Below, piece after piece: positions 5,401 to 41,808 of a DNA stretch of 64,000 bases. The DNA lies in NCBI GenBank assembly GCA_026421245.1, contig JAPKDJ010000011.1, positions 1-64,000 of the forward strand, read 5' to 3'. The first letter of the stretch is position 1, and every line of letters begins with the position of its first letter. Both the position numbers and the translations under genes were made by a program. The stretch is from Akkermansiaceae bacterium. Its GTDB lineage: Bacteria > Verrucomicrobiota > Verrucomicrobiia > Verrucomicrobiales > Akkermansiaceae. The notes under the pieces are model-generated. The model did not search any database. It had not been told where the DNA came from and saw only the letters and a list, made by a program, of their open reading frames with translations.

Positions 5401-6123
5401 ATTGCGGTGGGCATCCGGGCGTCCAATATGAGCTTTTTGGTTATCCGCACTCACCCAGTAGGCGTAGGCCCCCTTCGGGCGATACTCAGTCCGACCATCG
5501 GGAGTCAGTTGCTGTTTTTCGGTCGTGACTTTCTTTACCCTCACGAAATCATCGGGGCTCTGGACCGATCCTCTCGAAACAATCTGTTCCACTTTTGGAT
5601 CCCGCTCCTCCAAAGTTTCGACGCGGGCATCCTGATACTCCCGGAAACCCGATAACTTGTCCCGGCCACCCTCGTTACCACTAACGAAGTAGTTGAAAAT
5701 CTGATCCTTTGCGCGGAAATCCGTTCCGTTTCGGGCATCCTTAACCCCTCCTTCGTCCATATCACGGGTGTAAGGACTTCCGTTCGAGTTCTGATCATAA
5801 ATGGAAGAGATCACCCCCATCCAGTGGCGGTTCTTAACCCCGTCAACTTGCAGTGAGTCTGGATCGGTATCCAAAATCGAAGCGCTCACCGCGATTCGCT
5901 GGTCCGGACCAAGATCGCGCTGAATTTCACCGAGGGCAATCATCAGTCCAAGGCGTGCATTGGCCCGTGCTTCTTCCTGAGCCCACTCGAAGCGGCTGGT
6001 CTTCACAGTCAGTGAGGCGAGAGACAGGAAGGCCACCGCAACCAAAGTGAGAAGAAGAAGAACGGAAATGGTCGCAATAAGGGCGAATCCCTTCATCGCT
6101 TGTCGAGCATTGTGCGCTTTCAT
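2479..6123 (-). CDS. Verru_Chthon cassette protein A-like, prepilin-type N-terminus
   Basis: Large protein of 1214 residues. Its N-terminus (MKAHNARQAMKGFALI) is a short basic leader, then a GF junction, then a roughly 24-residue hydrophobic helix, as in type IV prepilin-like and PilX-like proteins. This layout and the body (helix, RANARLGLMIALGEIQ segment, long soluble part) match the Verru_Chthon cassette protein A family described from Verrucomicrobium and Chthoniobacter. Those proteins are thought to be surface or secretion-associated; function is unproven. I chose ATG 6123 because it places the leader correctly. The open frame extends upstream to 6390, but that stretch is not protein-like. 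Other members of the cassette (small prepilins) are not adjacent. The gene ends at a clear terminator and appears monocistronic. Confidence 0.82.
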   Translation of the reverse strand: MKAHNARQAMKGFALIATISVLLLLTLVAVAFLSLASLTVKTSRFEWAQEEARANARLGLMIALGEIQRDLGPDQRIAVSASILDTDPDSLQVDGVKNRHWMGVISSIYDQNSNGSPYTRDMDEGGVKDARNGTDFRAKDQIFNYFVSGNEGGRDKLSGFREYQDARVETLEERDPKVEQIVSRGSVQSPDDFVRVKKVTTEKQQLTPDGRTEYRPKGAYAYWVSADNQKAHIGRPDAHRNTAIDHNSGLGMWRMLHPQDAEPFVIDGIEKGQDSRDFRVLTPKTFTLVSESNRAGVLENFHAMTGLSSSVICNVRDGGLKRNLSAFLHGDDGGKAPEINDLQDSSKVHYIGVSPEDRLIGPPNERYALLRDESYDDSQYQDIAPNFELLWNWANLANEFRFGESSTGIREQKIWNGAPFRNGGANVYDGENLKPADPRNLTDIKMTPVIVEAATYYNLATYPEGTGVEQSHVLRQCIYPRIGLWNPYNVEMRLDKPMLMQLFLNGKKSIELDGNANFTREIYYGGRRDSFDNQFGGQVYFKLPAVTIPAGETFIFSMGGPPRELDIRNFGSNILQAEEAPSSASYLYKDYRLRTISGERATYAKDDDNKNSEFMPVAPSTFREKPLNFGTHGADNYMFMLKYLKNNPDPNISSFRSEPMLVYASVALQAGGGDEYPLEWNVDSGANVVQLTGVGDHVDEGVPPHPFTRDGFRVRWLDETLSNKGANNELFLQEAALGNWNLRASYICRTPFDNVTSRAPYFHGIYTRDNPSEELSWNALSPVLKGGFQTGFPFGPAGFGVDSVVAFEVPTREVGIPSLGYLRHLQLSEYVWQPSYAIGASIADPRVPRTGTVPTEIPGNNHGWSSQGYGTSYWSRLFSDLVFYLAEDNHLIFDMSYEVNHNLWSDFFLTGATPGQIANFAQDPVRSPLKNGNLRLWDRNGDPSEDLTDFFRAAGRLMMDGGFDVHSTNKEAWKALLATTRDTGYGSRDRTPFPRTLFPKGQENVKAEYSTKVFTGFRSLGDKEIDSFAEAIVREVKIRAPFFGLSDFVNRRLADDETGRNGALEAALEKSLPNRGQNTKFPVVREPLPNQGRLVAQGSPSQADLTPSDQLLKPASTGYGTPGYITQGDILQVIGSGLVARSDTFTVRSYGESKDVNGKVLARAWCEAVVQRTPEPVVPDDITGMNPKDPQENQTDFGRRFRIVSFRWLSADEV

Positions 6124-33943: not shown

Positions 33944-36900
33944 CTAAAGGCGGCAAAGAGCCCGAGTTCCTACGAAGTTTGCAATAAGAGCCATCACGAC
34001 GACCAGCCCAATCATCCAGGCTAAATCAACGAATCCGACTGTTCCACCCAGAACCGGAATCACCGCAACGAGCGCTGAAATCAATCCGATGCCCAGTCCC
34101 CACATCACCATCTCCCGAACTTCCCGTTTCACGATGGCAGCTCGAAGCCCCTTGGAAATCCCAAGGATTTTCAGCGTTTCAAACTCCCCCTTCCGCTCCA
34201 CCAAATTCCGTGCGGTGACAATTCCCACCCCAACACTGCCCAAAATAATTCCCAGACCACCGAGCACATTAAAAATCGCGATGTAGGTATTCTCCACCTC
34301 ATGAAAAGCCGCCAGCCGATCACGGGTTGCCGTCACCTTGCCTCCCAAATCAGCCGTTTCTTCCTGAAGGAGCTTTTTGTCCTCCTCTCCCGGGACGAGG
34401 AAAAGCTGATATCCGCCCATCGAAGGATATTTCTCAAGCAGCTTTGCCTCATCGACGATCACGCTCCCCTGAAAAATCGAATCCTTCACCACCCCCGCAA
34501 TCGTCACCGGATAATCATTCCCCCACTCATCCTGATACCTTAACTCATCCCCCACCTTCTTTTTCAAAACCCACATCATCGTCGTTTCATCAACGAAGGC
34601 CGGAACCCCGTCTCCTTTCAAAAGCGACCACTCATCGCTAGTTTTAAATCGTCCCTCCAGCAGTTTCGAATCAACTCCCAGAAGACGCGGCTGATCAGAT
34701 GCGGTGAGATTAAAACAATCGACATCGTCGCCCACCCCGATCCGGAACGGCACCAGCGAGTTCAGTCCAAACCACGCCACCTCTCCCTTGGCATCAGCCG
34801 GTCGATTCACCGGAGAAGTCGTCTCCACCCACCAGGCAAAACCTCCGGATCCACTCTTCTTGTCCTCCCAATCACCCCCGCCATTCTTGCGGAAGGATGC
34901 CACCGAGAGCACCAGAAAAACTCCGGCCGCCAAAACGCCAACCACAGTAAGGCTCCTCGATGCCCGCCGACTCAAATTCACCTTGGCCATTCCCTCCGCA
35001 GTGAGGCTCCCAAGCGAACCTATCCTGGCCAGTCTCTTTCGAAAGACCGCCAACCCGGTCACGAGCACCCCGAAGCCAACCAGAAAAAAGGCTCCCTGTG
35101 CTCCCGCCGTGAAAATCATCGCCACTCCGCCCAACACCAGCAGGAGTCCAATAATCAGGAACCCGGTCGCCCACTTGCTCTTCACCCCGATCTGCTCTTC
35201 GGCTCCGGAATTCAGCCGCAAACTCGCACTCTGTTTGGCTTGCTTGCGGGTCGTGAGCCACACCGCGATGAGTGAAAGCTTCACAATCGCCAGCATCCCC
35301 TTGGCAATCGTCCAACCACTGAGATGAAGCTCAAAATTCGTCCCGCTTCCCCAGATCGAACTGATGATTTTGAGAACCAGAACGCAGAACACCACCGCAA
35401 GCAATCCGCCAAGAATCGTGCCTCCCAAAACAACAACAAAGGCCTCGCCAATCCGCCAATTCGTAATCTTCTTTGCTGACACCCCAACTGCCGCAAGGAG
35501 GGCCCCTTCTTCGGCACGCTGCTCGACATTGAAACGGAAAAGCATCGCCACCAAGGCCACCGCCGCAAGGATGAGGAAAAAACTCATGCTCAAAAAGAGA
35601 ACCGCAAAGTCCACCGGCGACTTCGCGGTCTCCTTGGCTTCAGATGAAAAATTCAACACCTGCATGCCCGCCAACGAGGGCTCCAAAACTCCCCGTAGCT
35701 GCGCCGCCACTCCCTGCGCCTCACCCCCCGGCACACGGATTCCCGTCACCTTGCCCCAGCGGTTTGCCCACAAACTCTCCCCGGTTTCATGCGAGACAAA
35801 GGCCTTGGGCGTCCCTTTAAACTGCTCCCAGTAATCGTCGTCCTTGTCCCGAATCCGGGTCAAATCGAGCGGTAGTCCCGGTTCCCAATCGCGCGCGCTT
35901 TTCACATCCGCAACCCCCGGAAAATCCGGCATCCACCGTTTGTCCCGCGCCGGCCCGGCCATCGGAATAATTGCCTTCACCGTGAAAACCGCTCTTTCCT
36001 CCACAAGCTTGCTGCCGTCTTCCACCACAAAATAATCCATCGTCATTTCATCACCCACTTGCGCCCGCAGATCCTCGGCCAACCACTCATTAATGACCAC
36101 CTCGTCGTCACCCGGTTGAACCGGAAGGAAATCTGCGGACTCCCCACTCACCGCTGTCACCATGGAGTACGGCGTTTCTCCGACTTCTGTCGCCAGCGTA
36201 TTGACCAGATAAGTCAGCACCGGCTCTCCCGAGACCTTCTCCGCAATGCGCGGCTCCACAAAAATGCGTTCGGAACGAACTTCCACCCCACCGGGAACTT
36301 CCACGACCGAAATCCCATAGTCTGCCAGGGTGAGCATTTTCGCATCAAAGGGCGTCTTCTTGTTGAGGAGAAGCGCATTGGCCTTCCCCTCCAATTTAAG
36401 AACTTTTTGCAATCGCCCCAAGGGGAGAAAGACGGACGACGGCGGAACCTGCGTTTGCGCAAGACTGAAACGTCCAAACTCTCCCTCGCTGAGCACCTTC
36501 CCGATCGTGATGCGCAGCGAAGAAACTGATTCGCTTTCACCCGAAAGTGGGGCATCGCGGGACAAAAGGCCGGGCTTTTGAAGCCGCACCACCGCCGAAT
36601 CCCCCTTCTTAAGATCCAGGGCCCGCGCCAAAGGTCCGCTAATTGCCGCTTCGCCGTCCTTCAAGGCGACGGAAGTCTCCTCGGGCGCGAAGTCCCAAAA
36701 GTCATCACTGATCCCCATCACCTGAACCTGGCCTTCCGCCCGGTCCTCAACATTAACCTGCCCTTTTAAGTAAATCAGGGCAGAGCCCCCATTCCGCATG
36801 GCGAGGTCCGCCCGAAAGAAACGCTCCCCACCTGAAAAAATCTTCGCCACCTTGCCCGTCCTTAACTCGGCGGACTTCGAGAGACTCTGCTGCACCGAGT

Positions 36901-37018
36901 CACCTGCCATGAGAGCCCCGAGAAGCACCATCGCCCCCACCGCAGCCCCTGCCAAAACACCCCAATACGCAGAGCGATAATAACGAATCCCTTTCCAAAT
37001 AAATCCCCAGCTCTTCAC
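33944..37018 (-). CDS. FtsX-family ABC transporter permease, two repeats
   Basis: Inner-membrane protein of 1024 residues. An N-terminal helix (about residues 10-35, GVLAGAAVGAMVLLGALMAG) and a large periplasmic MacB-like domain precede a cluster of helices at about 500-700; a second periplasmic domain follows, then the C-terminal FtsX block (YIAIFNVLGGLGIILGSVGVG ... VERKGEFETLKILGISKG). This matches the double-FtsX permeases of lipoprotein or peptide export ABC systems. No ATPase or membrane-fusion gene adjoins it; the downstream partner is a small membrane protein. The start is uncertain: I propose GTG 37018 just before the first helix, whereas the frame is open to 37162 without a plausible signal. 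Confidence 0.83.
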   Translation of the reverse strand: MKSWGFIWKGIRYYRSAYWGVLAGAAVGAMVLLGALMAGDSVQQSLSKSAELRTGKVAKIFSGGERFFRADLAMRNGGSALIYLKGQVNVEDRAEGQVQVMGISDDFWDFAPEETSVALKDGEAAISGPLARALDLKKGDSAVVRLQKPGLLSRDAPLSGESESVSSLRITIGKVLSEGEFGRFSLAQTQVPPSSVFLPLGRLQKVLKLEGKANALLLNKKTPFDAKMLTLADYGISVVEVPGGVEVRSERIFVEPRIAEKVSGEPVLTYLVNTLATEVGETPYSMVTAVSGESADFLPVQPGDDEVVINEWLAEDLRAQVGDEMTMDYFVVEDGSKLVEERAVFTVKAIIPMAGPARDKRWMPDFPGVADVKSARDWEPGLPLDLTRIRDKDDDYWEQFKGTPKAFVSHETGESLWANRWGKVTGIRVPGGEAQGVAAQLRGVLEPSLAGMQVLNFSSEAKETAKSPVDFAVLFLSMSFFLILAAVALVAMLFRFNVEQRAEEGALLAAVGVSAKKITNWRIGEAFVVVLGGTILGGLLAVVFCVLVLKIISSIWGSGTNFELHLSGWTIAKGMLAIVKLSLIAVWLTTRKQAKQSASLRLNSGAEEQIGVKSKWATGFLIIGLLLVLGGVAMIFTAGAQGAFFLVGFGVLVTGLAVFRKRLARIGSLGSLTAEGMAKVNLSRRASRSLTVVGVLAAGVFLVLSVASFRKNGGGDWEDKKSGSGGFAWWVETTSPVNRPADAKGEVAWFGLNSLVPFRIGVGDDVDCFNLTASDQPRLLGVDSKLLEGRFKTSDEWSLLKGDGVPAFVDETTMMWVLKKKVGDELRYQDEWGNDYPVTIAGVVKDSIFQGSVIVDEAKLLEKYPSMGGYQLFLVPGEEDKKLLQEETADLGGKVTATRDRLAAFHEVENTYIAIFNVLGGLGIILGSVGVGIVTARNLVERKGEFETLKILGISKGLRAAIVKREVREMVMWGLGIGLISALVAVIPVLGGTVGFVDLAWMIGLVVVMALIANFVGTRALCRL

Positions 37019-37316
37019 GACCCAAAGTATATGGTCAGATCCCCAAAGGGCAAACCCAAGGAAGGACGGTCTCCAGACCAACCATAAACCAAGAGGGGCC
37101 ACTGGAGAAAACCCTCCGCTCGAAAACTTAGCCCTTCCCTGCTTCCGGGAGGCCTCAAACAAACTCGGCTTCCAACCCCGCCATTCGTATTTGGAATGGA
37201 TTTCTCGGTTTCTCCCATACGGTTCCCTCCGTCAGCCCAAACGAACGGCGAAGAGATCAACGTGAAAAGGGCAATCTTGAATTACTCCCTTCACCGCTTG
37301 AAACATCGTGAATGGG

Positions 37317-39521
37317 TTACTTCTTGGCAGCAGCAGCCTGCTCAAGAGCCTGAAGAGCTTCTTTTGGACCAAAGACTTCCGGCATGACGATCACCGGAGC
37401 ACCCGGATCAGCTGGAGCAATGATGTTGACGGGGAGGTTCGCCCGGTCATATCGCTTCAAATCATCATTAATGGATTGCAGCTTGTTGGTATTGTCCGCC
37501 TTGATCAAAAGGACGTCTAATTCTTCAAGCTTATCGAGAACTTCCTGATTCGAGAACACACGGCTCTCGTTCACTTTGCAAGTCGCTCACCAATCGGCGG
37601 TGTAATCGAGCCAAATAATTCGACCCTTCGGTCGGGAAACCTCCATGACCCCGGGATACCATTCCTTCCAGGCCAGTCCGGATTCGGGTGGCTTGGCCGT
37701 GGAGTAGGCCCAGGTAATACCGCCAATTGTCATGAGTCCGGCGAGCCCAAATCCGGTGACCATGCGTTTGACCTTGGCAACCACCGGCGTCCCGTATCGA
37801 CCATAGATGTAGACTCCGAGTCCAATCAAACAGAGGGCAAAGAGAAAGGAATTAAAATGATCGTCTCCCACCAGCTTCATGTATCCCTTCATGAAAAAGA
37901 CAGCAGTGGCAAAAACGAAAAACGCCATCACTTGCTTGAACGTTTCCATCCATGCTCCGGGACGTGGAAGCTTTTTGATTAAGGAAGGAAAAAGTGAGAG
38001 CACGATGTAAGGTGACGCAATCCCCAGCGCAAAGACGGTGAAGATCACGAACTGAATGAGCTTGTTGTCCTCGGAAAGTGCAAATGCCATGACCGCCCCG
38101 AGAAATGGCCCGGAGCAAGGGGTCGCCACAAGTGTGGTCAATGCCCCCGAAAAGAAGGAACCCAAGTACCCTTTTTGGGACTGAAGTTCGCCCCCCACAC
38201 TCGTCATGCTGGTTCCAATCTCAAAGACTCCGTAAAGATTCAATCCCATCAGGAAGAAAATAATGATCATCGTTCCAAGGAAAACCGGGTTGGCCAACTG
38301 CTGCCCCCAGTCGAGCTTTAGCCCGATGATAAAGGCCGCCAAAATCCACATCGTGACGAGTAGACCCAGCCCGAAGATCAAACCGTGAAATTTGATTTTC
38401 TTCTCGTCTTCTCCGGCTTGGGAAACGAACCCCATGATCTTGATGCCAAGGACCGGAAAAACACAGGGCATGAGATTCAGAATCAAGCCGCCAAGAAAAA
38501 CGAGTCCAAGCGATGACAGGAAGGTCACTTTCTCCTCCTTCGCTCCTCCAAGGAGAACAATATCTGGCCGTGCTTCGACATCGTAAACCTCAAGACCGGC
38601 TTTGCGTTCCTCTTCGGTCGCTAGAATCAATTCCACATATCCCAAATCGGCATCAGGAGTGAGAGCCGCCTTCACCGGCACACTGGCCGGTCCAAATTCC
38701 GACTCAAAGGTCAGCAACCCGGTCAGAGTTTCTCCCACCTCCCCTGCATCGATATACAGTTCCTCGTTCCCCTCATTCCGCTTCAAGGTCAGCGATACCT
38801 TCTTGCTCGTAATTTCCACTTCCTGCGGAGCCTGCGAGTCGATCTGCTTGTCATCGGAAAAGAAATAAACCGGCTCCTTCACCTCCACACCCTCGGGGCG
38901 AATGACCTCGATTTTGATCGTATTACTCTTTTCGGTCACGATGAACCCCCACGCTGAGGCATCTTGTGGAAGCTTCTCCTTTGTCTCCGAGAAAAGCTCT
39001 TCATTCGCCCCGATGAATTCAGTCTCGTCTCCGGTTTTGACCGTGAATGCAAACTCCTTGTCACCCTGAATGCAGCTTTCATCGCACTCCTGCCAATTGA
39101 AGGTTCCCTTGATCGTAAATTTCTTCCCTTTCTCAAGATTCTCGCTGGCATCAATCTGTGCCACAAAGGTCACCACTCCCTCATAACCGTAGAGAACAGT
39201 ATCAACCCCAGCAGATTTTGTTTTGATCGCAGTGGGCCGTGGAAATTGCAACTCCCCCGCCGTAAAGCCCTCCGGCAACTCCCAGTCGACGGAGGGTGGA
39301 TCTCCCACAATCCCCGCATTTTTATAATAAGCATGGAAGTGAGGCTGGAGATCAAGAGTGAACGCGGCATCAAAGTAATCGCCCGGATCCACCGAACTGG
39401 CTTCCGGCGTGATCGTGGCAGTGGTTTCCTTCTTAGGAGCAAAGCCCCCCCCAAAGGGATCCTGTGCCGAAACAAAGGACGCAAATGCTAAGACGAAAAG
39501 AAAAGTAAGGGCTCGGTGCAT
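37317..39521 (-). CDS. dsbD: DsbD thiol:disulfide interchange protein, probable selenoprotein (TGA = Sec645)
   Basis: Inner-membrane electron conduit that passes reducing power from cytoplasmic thioredoxin to periplasmic substrates. Read through the TGA at 37589-37587 it is 734 residues. Signal peptide (1-18). N-terminal DsbD-alpha-type domain with C146/C150 (ECDESC). CcdA-like membrane domain with C353 (LMPCVFPVL) and C469 (ATPCSGPF). C-terminal thioredoxin domain starting about 615. In that domain the redox site reads ADW-TGA-ATCKVNES where family members have ADWCxxCKVNE, so the stop replaces exactly the first active-site cysteine (U645/C648). The downstream 89 codons are open, in frame and domain-like. 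A SECIS-like hairpin is at 37551-37569. Ordinary calling would split it into 37587-39521 and 37317-37574. Start ATG 39521 chosen for the signal peptide. An actual nonsense mutation is the main alternative. Confidence 0.85.
37551..37569 (-). promoter_or_regulatory. Candidate bacterial SECIS hairpin
   Basis: On the minus strand, starting 17 nt after the TGA at 37589-37587, CGAGA(G) (37569-37564) pairs with (T)TCTCG (37556-37551) around a loop GCCGTGTGT containing GU. Bacterial SECIS elements are short stem-loops inside the coding region just 3' of UGA, and, as I recall, the published consensus puts the apical loop roughly 16-37 nt away with a G among its first two bases. Here the 5-bp stem puts the loop 22 nt away and it begins with G. 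Suggestive only; SelB binding is not provable by eye. Confidence 0.5.
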
Positions 39522-39726
39522 AACTTGGTGTCGTGGATTGTCCATTGGAGGGAAGCAGGTGCGAGTTTCTTCCCGATTATTTTCACAAAGGGAGCGGTTA
39601 AGGGCAGCCCCTTTGTTCGGCCGCCGCCAGAATGGCACGATCCAGCCCATCCACAAGTTCGCGAACCGTCTCAAAATCAAAACTCCAAGCTGGAGCCTCC
39701 CCCTCCCTCCGGTACAAGCTCCCGCC
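39522..39726. promoter_or_regulatory. Divergent promoter region dsbD / GH-GT2 fusion gene
   Basis: 205 bases separate the start of dsbD (minus, 39521) from the start of the glycoside hydrolase/glycosyltransferase gene (plus, 39727). No other gene fits, so promoters of both must be here. I cannot point to clear -35/-10 boxes. Confidence 0.35.
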
Positions 39727-41808
39727 ATGCGGCTCACCGTGCACGGAAAGCACTTCCATCTCGATGGAAGACCGCACTTTCTGCGCACCGTCACCTACGG
39801 GCCCTTTCCTCCCGAATCAGGACATTCACCTGGGGCCGACTTCCCCAAAATCCGGCAAACCGGCTTCGACTCAATCCGCGTTTACGCCCTCCCGGACAAA
39901 GCCCTCCTCGACACCGCGGCGGAACATAACCTGATCGTTATCGCCACCCACGCCTGGGGCCATGGCTGCGACTTCATCAAAGAAAATCCCTCCCTCCTCG
40001 AGGAAGCCCGAAAGGATCTCATCGACTGGCTGGGCAAACACCATGATCACCCCGGATTAGGCGCGGTTTTAGTAGGGAACGAAATCCCCTCCGACATGGC
40101 CCGCTGGATGACCCCGTGGAAAGTCAACCGCGCGCTCGATGGCCTCATCCGTGCTGCCCAAAAGGCCGCCCCTGGCCTCCCTATCGCTTACGCCAACTTC
40201 CCCACCACCGAATATCTCGAACCCCCCTCCGCAGACTTCACCGCTTTCAACATCTTTCTTGAAGAAGGGGAATTACTCGAAAGCTACCTTCCCCGCCTCC
40301 ATCACCTCGCCGGCGATCGTCCGGTCTATCTCACCGAATTCGGCCTCGATACCTCCCGCAATTCCGAAGAGGCACAAGCCGCGCTTCTCCCCGCCGCCCT
40401 CCGCATGAGCCGCAAAGCAGGGCTTTGCGGCATCACCCTCTACGCTTGGTCGGATCACTGGTTCAACAATGGCCGGACCATGGACGATTGGTCCTTCGGA
40501 CTCCTCCGCCGCGATGGTTCCGCGAAGCCCGCCCTCTCGGCTCTTCATAGCACCGACTTGCCGGATCCTCTTCCGAAGAATCCTCCCCGCTTTTCCGTCA
40601 TCGTCTGCACCCGCAACGGCGAAAATCGTCTCGCCGATTGCCTCTCAGCCTGCCGCGCGCTCGACTACCCCGACTTTGAAATCATTGTAATCAACGACGG
40701 CTCCACCGATCGCACCCCCACCCTCCTCGACCAAATAGAAAACATCCGTGTCTTTCATCTTGAACCCTGCGGCCTTTCCGCCGCTCGAGACCACGGGGCC
40801 GAACAAGCAACCGGTGAAATCCTCGCTTTCACTGACGACGATTGCTGCCCCGACGAACAATGGCTCACCTGGCTGGCGCGGGCCTACTCCGAAGGTGACT
40901 ACGCTGCCATCGGAGGTCCTAATCTCCCCCCCAAACCGGATTCTCTCGGCCGCGCCCTCACCACCGCAGCACCCGGGGCACCCACCCATGTCATGCTCGA
41001 CGATACCACCGCCGAGCATCTCCCCGGATGCCACCTCTCGGTGAAAAAATCCGCCTTCCAGACAATCGGCGGCTTTGATCCCGTTTTCCAAACTGCTGGT
41101 GACGACGTCGACTTTTGCTGGCGGCTTCGTGATGCCGGCTTCTCTCTCGGATTCTCCGGAGCCTCCTTCGTATGGCACCATCGTCGGGCGACGCCATGGA
41201 GATATCTCAAACAGCAGATGGGCTACGGGAAAGCCGAAGCCCTTCTCTACAAAAAACATCCCCATCGTTTTTCCGAAGGCGGCATTCGCTGGGAAGGCTG
41301 CGTCTACCGGGGCGTCGCACTGGGCATCGAGCCGGGCGACTTCATCTACTCCGGACCCACCGGCGAAGCGCCTTATCAAAGCCTGGGGCAACTTCTTCGG
41401 CAACCTATGCGCGGACTTCATCCCACCTTCGATTGTTTTCTCGCCCGCCGTCTCCTTTCCATCCTGACCTGGCTCCAAAGCCACCTCCGTCACCGGGCCC
41501 GCAAACGTAATGGCGGGCCCTCCGCCCGTGGAAGTTGGCCAAGTCCCCCACGTCAGGCTGATTACGCTGCGACCCTGACTTTCCTCAATTCGAAAGGCCT
41601 GGGCCGCCACGAACTCTATCGGCATCTTCTCTCCCATGGCTGGGAAGGCTGCGGAGACCCTGACTTCGACCTCCAACGCGGCGCCCTTAAACTCATCGCC
41701 GCCACCGAGCAGACCGGCACCTCCACCAGCCGGACCTTCGTCGGGCTCAACAATTCAGCTGCGAATCTCCCCGACCTTGTTGAATCCGCCGGTTTCGCCA
41801 AGGCATAA
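39727..41808 (+). CDS. Glycoside hydrolase (clan A-like) fused to GT2 glycosyltransferase
   Basis: Single 693-residue protein with two catalytic modules and no signal peptide. Residues 1-285 form a TIM-barrel hydrolase of the clan GH-A type: acid/base site VGNE (E119) and nucleophile region LTEFG (E204). Residues about 288-600 form a family 2 glycosyltransferase, beginning FSVIVCTRNGENRL, with VINDGSTD, the metal-binding FTDDDCCP segment and GGFDPVFQTAGDDVDFCWRL. The C-terminal 90 residues are unassigned. The fusion suggests build-and-trim or transglycosylation on a surface polysaccharide (inference). ATG 39727 opens both modules in frame; earlier starts overlap the divergent dsbD promoter. 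The stop is 7 bases before queA. Confidence 0.87.
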   Translation: MRLTVHGKHFHLDGRPHFLRTVTYGPFPPESGHSPGADFPKIRQTGFDSIRVYALPDKALLDTAAEHNLIVIATHAWGHGCDFIKENPSLLEEARKDLIDWLGKHHDHPGLGAVLVGNEIPSDMARWMTPWKVNRALDGLIRAAQKAAPGLPIAYANFPTTEYLEPPSADFTAFNIFLEEGELLESYLPRLHHLAGDRPVYLTEFGLDTSRNSEEAQAALLPAALRMSRKAGLCGITLYAWSDHWFNNGRTMDDWSFGLLRRDGSAKPALSALHSTDLPDPLPKNPPRFSVIVCTRNGENRLADCLSACRALDYPDFEIIVINDGSTDRTPTLLDQIENIRVFHLEPCGLSAARDHGAEQATGEILAFTDDDCCPDEQWLTWLARAYSEGDYAAIGGPNLPPKPDSLGRALTTAAPGAPTHVMLDDTTAEHLPGCHLSVKKSAFQTIGGFDPVFQTAGDDVDFCWRLRDAGFSLGFSGASFVWHHRRATPWRYLKQQMGYGKAEALLYKKHPHRFSEGGIRWEGCVYRGVALGIEPGDFIYSGPTGEAPYQSLGQLLRQPMRGLHPTFDCFLARRLLSILTWLQSHLRHRARKRNGGPSARGSWPSPPRQADYAATLTFLNSKGLGRHELYRHLLSHGWEGCGDPDFDLQRGALKLIAATEQTGTSTSRTFVGLNNSAANLPDLVESAGFAKA

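Follow-up and report, generated by a model that had tools for sequence, protein, structure and literature searches.

The dsbD gene on the minus strand of the window, as we call the whole 64,000-nt stretch of Akkermansiaceae DNA analysed here, very probably contains a selenocysteine (Sec) codon in place of the first cysteine codon of its C-terminal CxxC motif. The gene spans 37317..39521 (-), and its frame, read from 39521 to 37317, comprises 734 codons and a stop, with the TGA at 37589-37587 (37587..37589 (-), residue 645) as the sole internal stop. With Sec at this codon, the sequence becomes ADW-U-ATCKVNE and UATC replaces the C-terminal CxxC of DsbD. A preliminary description had placed the TGA exactly at this cysteine, and both the frame and an alignment of related loci confirm the assignment. 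As it also stated, the other relay cysteines (C146/C150, C353 and C469) and the partner C648 are all intact at their positions, and the frame remains open past the TGA to 37317, giving a read-through protein of 734 residues. Its prediction that annotation would split the gene was reproduced by table-11 ORF calling, which returns a truncated DsbD and an orphan 85-aa ORF (37317..37574); Sec-DsbD genes in general are likely to be called in this way, and the family may therefore be undercounted. The window has 213 TGA codons flanked on either side by 40 or more open codons, and of these only 37589-37587 combines a Cys codon within three codons with a 7-bp hairpin carrying GU in its loop, while the best other TGA with a nearby Cys, a single codon among those screened, has a 6-bp hairpin. 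We conclude with high confidence that the gene encodes a transmembrane thiol:disulfide reductase of the DsbD type, in which Sec645 of the C-terminal thioredoxin domain (Sec645-x-x-Cys648) would be the exposed attacking residue. Its UGA would be decoded via tRNA-Sec, SelB and a downstream hairpin, and we infer that Sec is inserted in the cell. At the sequence level, this proposal is backed by conservation of the TGA and of the hairpin, by the Sec machinery, by constraint on the region beyond the TGA and by an intact cysteine relay.

The read-through protein matches the Pfam families DsbD_N (residues 43-159), DsbD_TM (338-545) and Thioredoxin_7 (617-698), all above cut-off, and has orthologues across the family. 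It thus has the three domains of a DsbD, with the Cys pairs of the N-terminal and membrane domains present. Cys146 to Cys150 of the alpha (N-terminal) domain (39072..39086 (-)) and Cys353 and Cys469 of the beta (transmembrane) domain (37887..38510 (-)) are kept in 35/35 Sec loci of the family that cover these sites, the one remaining Sec locus being a fragment. Cys648 (37578..37580 (-)), the presumed resolving partner of Sec645, is found in the read-through frame and in the locus alignment. The order DsbD_N, DsbD_TM and thioredoxin-like domain, the positions of the relay cysteines, and an Asp at -6 and a Glu at +7 relative to the attacking residue are shared with the E. coli-type DsbD; the window gene departs from it where Sec is encoded in place of the first C-terminal CxxC cysteine. 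As the protein has UxxC, with Cys648 retained, a definition that insists on CxxC would exclude it from DsbD, and it would be a Sec variant with homology along all three domains. Its score against PRK00293, the NCBIfam model for DsbD, is 120.3 bits and falls short of the cut-off of 330. Residues 630-684 match DsbD C-terminal domain chains in the PDB weakly (E 0.0007-0.006) but in the right place, with position 645 aligned to the first Cys of CVAC in the solved chains, and residues 337-538 align with CcdA (E 6e-6), a chain of 232 residues. Downstream of dsbD, on the same strand, positions 33944-37162 encode an FtsX/MacB-type permease. On the plus strand, the longest ORF (39409-41808) runs divergently from dsbD and overlaps its 5' end, the start of the ORF probably being placed too far upstream. 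Elsewhere in the same genome, a 293-aa open frame (L071, C151:27218-27904) resembles only the N-terminal part of DsbD and has a Cys-rich MCCAKGC site, and its product is possibly a separate periplasmic partner.

Cytochrome c maturation and the isomerisation of disulfides both draw reductant from DsbD. If the protein works like its E. coli homologue, cytoplasmic thioredoxin would reduce the Cys353/Cys469 pair in the membrane, which would in turn reduce Sec645-Cys648, a selenenylsulfide when oxidised that Cys648 would resolve. In the last step, Sec645-Cys648 would pass electrons to Cys146/Cys150 of the N-terminal domain and from there to periplasmic substrates. By this analogy, Sec-DsbD is predicted to transfer electrons from cytoplasmic thioredoxin to the periplasm through a cascade like the thiol cascade described for E. 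coli DsbD in the consulted parts of two papers (PMC3961690, PMC7347389). For the insertion of Sec, SelB would be recruited to the UGA by the hairpin that starts 17 nt downstream. One might also speculate that the UGA doubles as a true stop, with DsbD ending at Trp644 when selenium is scarce and made at full length with Sec otherwise, which would constitute a selenium-dependent switch of periplasmic reduction. Decoding of UGA as Sec competes with termination, and the short product would retain the membrane domain, a part similar to the 232-residue CcdA chain. Against such a switch, the genome contains a single full DsbD and no second one as a replacement, the only other match covering the N-terminal part alone (residues 7-244). 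We regard the switch as unlikely.

A protein search of 195 family genomes gave a match in 193, weaker matches not being listed. We aligned 50 loci to residue 645, namely all 38 listed TGA-bearing rows and 12 listed rows without a TGA. Column 645 is TGA in 36/50 loci and TGC or TGT in 14/50; two loci flagged for a TGA elsewhere (L056 and L058) have Cys at this column. Relatives hence carry TGA or TGY here, the alternation by which the preliminary description had proposed that a Sec codon could be recognised. The Sec form is present in 24/27 genomes of the window's genus, the remaining three (G134, G138 and G157; 65-80% complete) having weaker matches only, and in 12 genomes of other genera of the family among the matches listed. 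A broader sample, drawn from the whole phylum, had matches at 1e-60 in 130 of its 387 genomes; eight listed rows were flagged for a TGA, two of them at the column (the window's own genome and G014) and six with Cys there. Besides L056 and L058, the flagged rows that proved to have Cys at the column are L076, L088, L096, L098, L204 and L205. Together, the family and phylum counts indicate that within the Verrucomicrobiota the Sec form is frequent among the nearer relatives of the window's genome and rare outside them.

To look further afield, the pattern D-x-x-A-D-W-U-x-x-C-K was scanned against one genome per species (84,980 species). This gave 104 stretches, of which 76 are DsbD by comparison with the window protein (E < 1e-10) and 28 are not. 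Of the 76, 48 come from Planctomycetota, 25 from Verrucomicrobiota and three from assemblies without a phylum name; these are stretches rather than genomes, since two assemblies contribute two stretches each and some of the 25 come from genomes already counted in the family search. Persicirhabdus sediminis KCTC 22039 (L158) and a complete chromosome, that of Planctomycetes bacterium K23_9 (L176), are included. In the family of K23_9, 20 of 149 genomes matched the K23_9 DsbD at 1e-70; K23_9 itself and the genome of L110 belong to the four listed rows in which a TGA occurs. For comparisons across this wider set, 172 matching loci were reduced by eight that start late or miss the column and by 27 identical ones to 137 rows (80 Sec, 57 Cys).

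The window's own genome (G000; 192 contigs, 93.5% complete) encodes selA (479 bits, cut-off 267.9), selB (299.5 bits, cut-off 242.25) and selD (387.8 bits, cut-off 125). For tRNA-Sec, one model match lies above the gathering score (55 vs 47 bits) and 12 more lie below it; ARAGORN called the same gene tRNA-SeC with anticodon TCA. The selD gene itself (L018, C68:142009-142938) has an in-frame TGA in CGGUASK, followed by the inverted repeat CACGCAAGTCTTGCGTG, so the genome has another UGA-encoded gene of a known selenoprotein family. As expected of a bacterial selenoprotein, the UGA of dsbD thus stands where homologues have Cys, in a genome with SelA, SelB, SelD and a tRNA-Sec (UCA). The preliminary description had made its Sec reading depend on this machinery, and the reading is supported by its presence and by the TGA/TGY alternation. 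Across the family, selB was found in 69/195 genomes (68 over the cut-off), namely in 34/36 Sec-DsbD genomes versus 35/159 others, one of the latter below the cut-off (Fisher p 1.9e-16, a value that overstates independence, as the genomes are related). The two Sec-DsbD genomes in which selB was not found are G115 (88% complete) and G097 (84% complete). In the wider set, selB lies over the cut-off in 10/10 genomes picked from the motif-scan loci and was found in 3/3 further-tested planctomycete Sec genomes, one of which is shared with the ten.

In bacteria, a SECIS hairpin closely follows the UGA and bears GU in its apical loop; the window gene has such a structure at 37551..37569 (-), starting 17 nt after the TGA, with a 7-bp stem and the loop CGUGU (37562-37558). 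With the T of the TGA as nucleotide 1, nucleotides 21-27 pair with 33-39. Over the 36 aligned Sec loci (31 distinct sequences), 94.0% of cells are paired, compared with 29.5-69.6% in slid control versions of the hairpin. Covariation is seen at the outer pair (U-A to C-G) and at the inner pair (C-G to G-C), with both sides changed; double-sided changes amount to 13 cells versus 3.0 in shuffles, and the covariation score is 0.305 versus 0.184. The number of pairs with a double change (2 vs 1.7) and of further pair types (7 vs 7.3) shows no excess over shuffles. As relatedness survives shuffling, the slid and Cys controls carry more weight. Among the 31 sequences, the outermost pair 21-39 fails in five, 25-35 and 26-34 in three each, and 22-38 and 23-37 in one each, both in L044. 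When a simple finder looked for stems of six or more base pairs whose loop contains GU, 71/80 Sec rows and 4/57 Cys rows gave a hit. A 25-nt stretch of the window, picked after the hairpin had been seen, folds with -8.6 kcal/mol (z -3.45); the equivalent folds of three other Sec genes have z values from -1.59 (L047) to -4.53, and those of four Cys genes are absent or weak (0 to -4.0 kcal/mol). A 61-nt fold starting from the UGA is not exceptional (z -1.45), and an Rfam scan of the window found no family at the gathering threshold. In Cys forms nested in the Sec clade (L211-L213 and L061), a search for relic hairpins gave weak stems, none clearly above shuffles. Ordinary suppression, in which the UGA would be read as another amino acid such as Trp or Cys, would likewise leave the frame open beyond the UGA; however, tRNA-Sec, SelA, SelB and SelD are all present, SelD has its own UGA in CGGUASK, and the hairpin accompanies TGA far more often than TGY. 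On these grounds we reject suppression as very improbable, in favour of decoding as Sec.

Selection on the part beyond the TGA was assessed by the Nei-Gojobori method with 23 loci of the genus (253 pairs). The median dN/dS is 0.090 before the TGA (maximum 0.291; 66 usable pairs) and 0.113 after it (maximum 0.464; 106 usable pairs), values that are rough because synonymous change is almost saturated (median dS 1.69 before and 1.61 after the TGA). They indicate that the read-through part is constrained by purifying selection. A lone in-frame stop in one draft assembly would look the same if a nonsense mutation had turned the gene into a pseudogene or if the base had been misread in sequencing. 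This rival is rejected as scarcely credible: 36 genomes of the family share the TGA, as do planctomycete records, the downstream part is under selection and the frame has no other internal stop. The identical TGA at the aligned column in 36 genomes also bears out the argument of the preliminary description that a chance nonsense mutation is unlikely.

Sec is ionised at neutral pH, and we infer that Sec645 would act as a selenolate where Cys461 of E. coli DsbD has a pKa of 10.6. Exchange would be faster and the protection afforded by a high pKa would be lost, and acidic neighbours may partly restore control. The pKa of 10.6 was reported to be set by Asp455 and Glu468 and taken as a guard against side reactions in the part of that work consulted (PMC3961690). 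Asp455 and Glu468 occupy positions -6 and +7 relative to the attacking Cys461, and by alignment with the PDB chains the equivalent of Glu468 is Glu652 (codon GAG, 37566..37568 (-)). In loci not selected by motif, +7 is E in 36/36 Sec and K in 14/14 Cys forms, and -2 is D in 36/36 Sec and 0/14 Cys forms. In the wider set, +7, which lies outside the scan pattern, is E in 79/80 Sec and 4/57 Cys rows (K in 42/57). Position -2 is D in 80/80 Sec and 2/57 Cys rows (R or K in 40/57 Cys rows), and -6 is D in 137/137 rows and hence common to both forms; as -6, -2 and +4 are part of the scan pattern, their Sec counts in this set are biased. The GAG codon of Glu652 lies within the hairpin stem, and what is conserved could thus be the RNA or the protein. 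Nor is the charge pattern confined to Sec forms, for E. coli DsbD, a Cys form, combines D at -2 with E at +7. The nested planctomycete Cys rows L211-L213 also keep E at +7.

For a tree, the 137 rows were thinned at 80% identity to 94 (48 Sec, 46 Cys) and the Sec/Cys column was masked. Seven Sec/Cys changes are needed, four of them forced by starred branches; the method is a quick one with five long branches flagged, and the count carries no direction. The K23_9-type planctomycete DsbDs are placed within a clade of Verrucomicrobiota, a position suggestive of transfer between the two phyla. A second, separate planctomycete group is also Sec. Among the Cys forms nested in the Sec clade, selB is found in 3/3 planctomycetes and 0/4 Verrucomicrobiota; as the planctomycetes keep selB, loss of the machinery accounts for at most part of the switches. 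On balance, we favour a broader view in which Sec-DsbD is a widespread, repeatedly exchanged conduit crossing the Verrucomicrobiota/Planctomycetota phylum boundary. In this conduit, a selenol would replace the nucleophile with the highest reported CxxC pKa (10.6, E. coli Cys461), positions -2 and +7 would be acidic in Sec forms and mostly not in Cys relatives, and RNA and protein constraints would coincide at the Glu at +7 in the SECIS stem.

In our reading, the conserved-domain entry cd02953 corresponds to the gamma domain of DsbD. Under cd02953, a metagenome study of 2008 recorded 22 UxxC sequences from 13 ocean samples as 'Trx-like 2 (Thiol disulfide interchange protein)' (PMC2398784 Table 2). 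These share with the window gene a UxxC in what would be the DsbD-gamma domain; they differ in being domain-level metagenome reads, for which the consulted part of the paper gives no full-length DsbD, host or hairpin. They may represent fragments of this family or of one like it, and the novelty of our finding is limited in so far as UxxC under cd02953 was already listed there. TsoB, a selenoprotein of the rhodanese/DsbD fusion-like kind (NF045694; PMC13188914 Table 1), has a DsbD-like part that matches residues 331-693 of the window protein (E 2.3e-52); it differs in being listed, in the table as consulted, under rhodanese-like proteins with two Sec (UxxxxU), whereas the window gene has one TGA. 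We rejected membership in TsoB on the grounds of 177.8 bits against a cut-off of 805, the single TGA and the absence of a rhodanese match. A 'Thiol:disulfide interchange protein' with UxxC, WP_011366075.1, is filed under PF13098 (Thioredoxin_2) in the portions consulted of PMC9312934 and PMC13188914, and the name is also used for Geobacter and Syntrophus (PMC1794560, consulted in part). Compared by description only, it shares the name and the UxxC with the window gene and differs in its assignment to PF13098. A 2026 inventory of 119 selenoprotein families or subfamilies names DsbD in TsoB only, in the sections consulted (PMC13188914), and planctomycete selenoproteins are reported in a supplementary table of another study, likewise consulted in part (PMC4807772). 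No description of a full-length Sec-DsbD was found in the parts consulted of the open papers searched.

If the Sec form is true, a transmembrane relay passes electrons via a selenenylsulfide in an oxidising compartment, in contrast to E. coli DsbD, which protects its Cys there by an extreme pKa. Natural Sec/Cys pairs of DsbD exist in related, partly cultured bacteria, and the reason for using Sec is thus directly testable.

Some of the 28 scan stretches that are not DsbD are probably due to chance. Ten D-x-YADWUxxCK frames that fail as DsbD (L100, L129, L143, L146, L150, L161, L171, L188, L193 and L194) come from Zixibacteria, Armatimonadota, Gemmatimonadota, Krumholzibacteriota and other bacteria, and some of these may be further selenoproteins. 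In an uncultured Rubritalea (L167:3622-3654), a thioredoxin-like frame has WUGPC and, a short distance after it, an inverted repeat; it may encode a Sec thioredoxin rather than a DsbD. Lastly, one planctomycete DsbD frame contains two ADWUxxCK sites 178 residues apart (L109:5449-5481 and 5983-6015), which suggests that its C-terminal thioredoxin domain has been duplicated and carries Sec in both copies.
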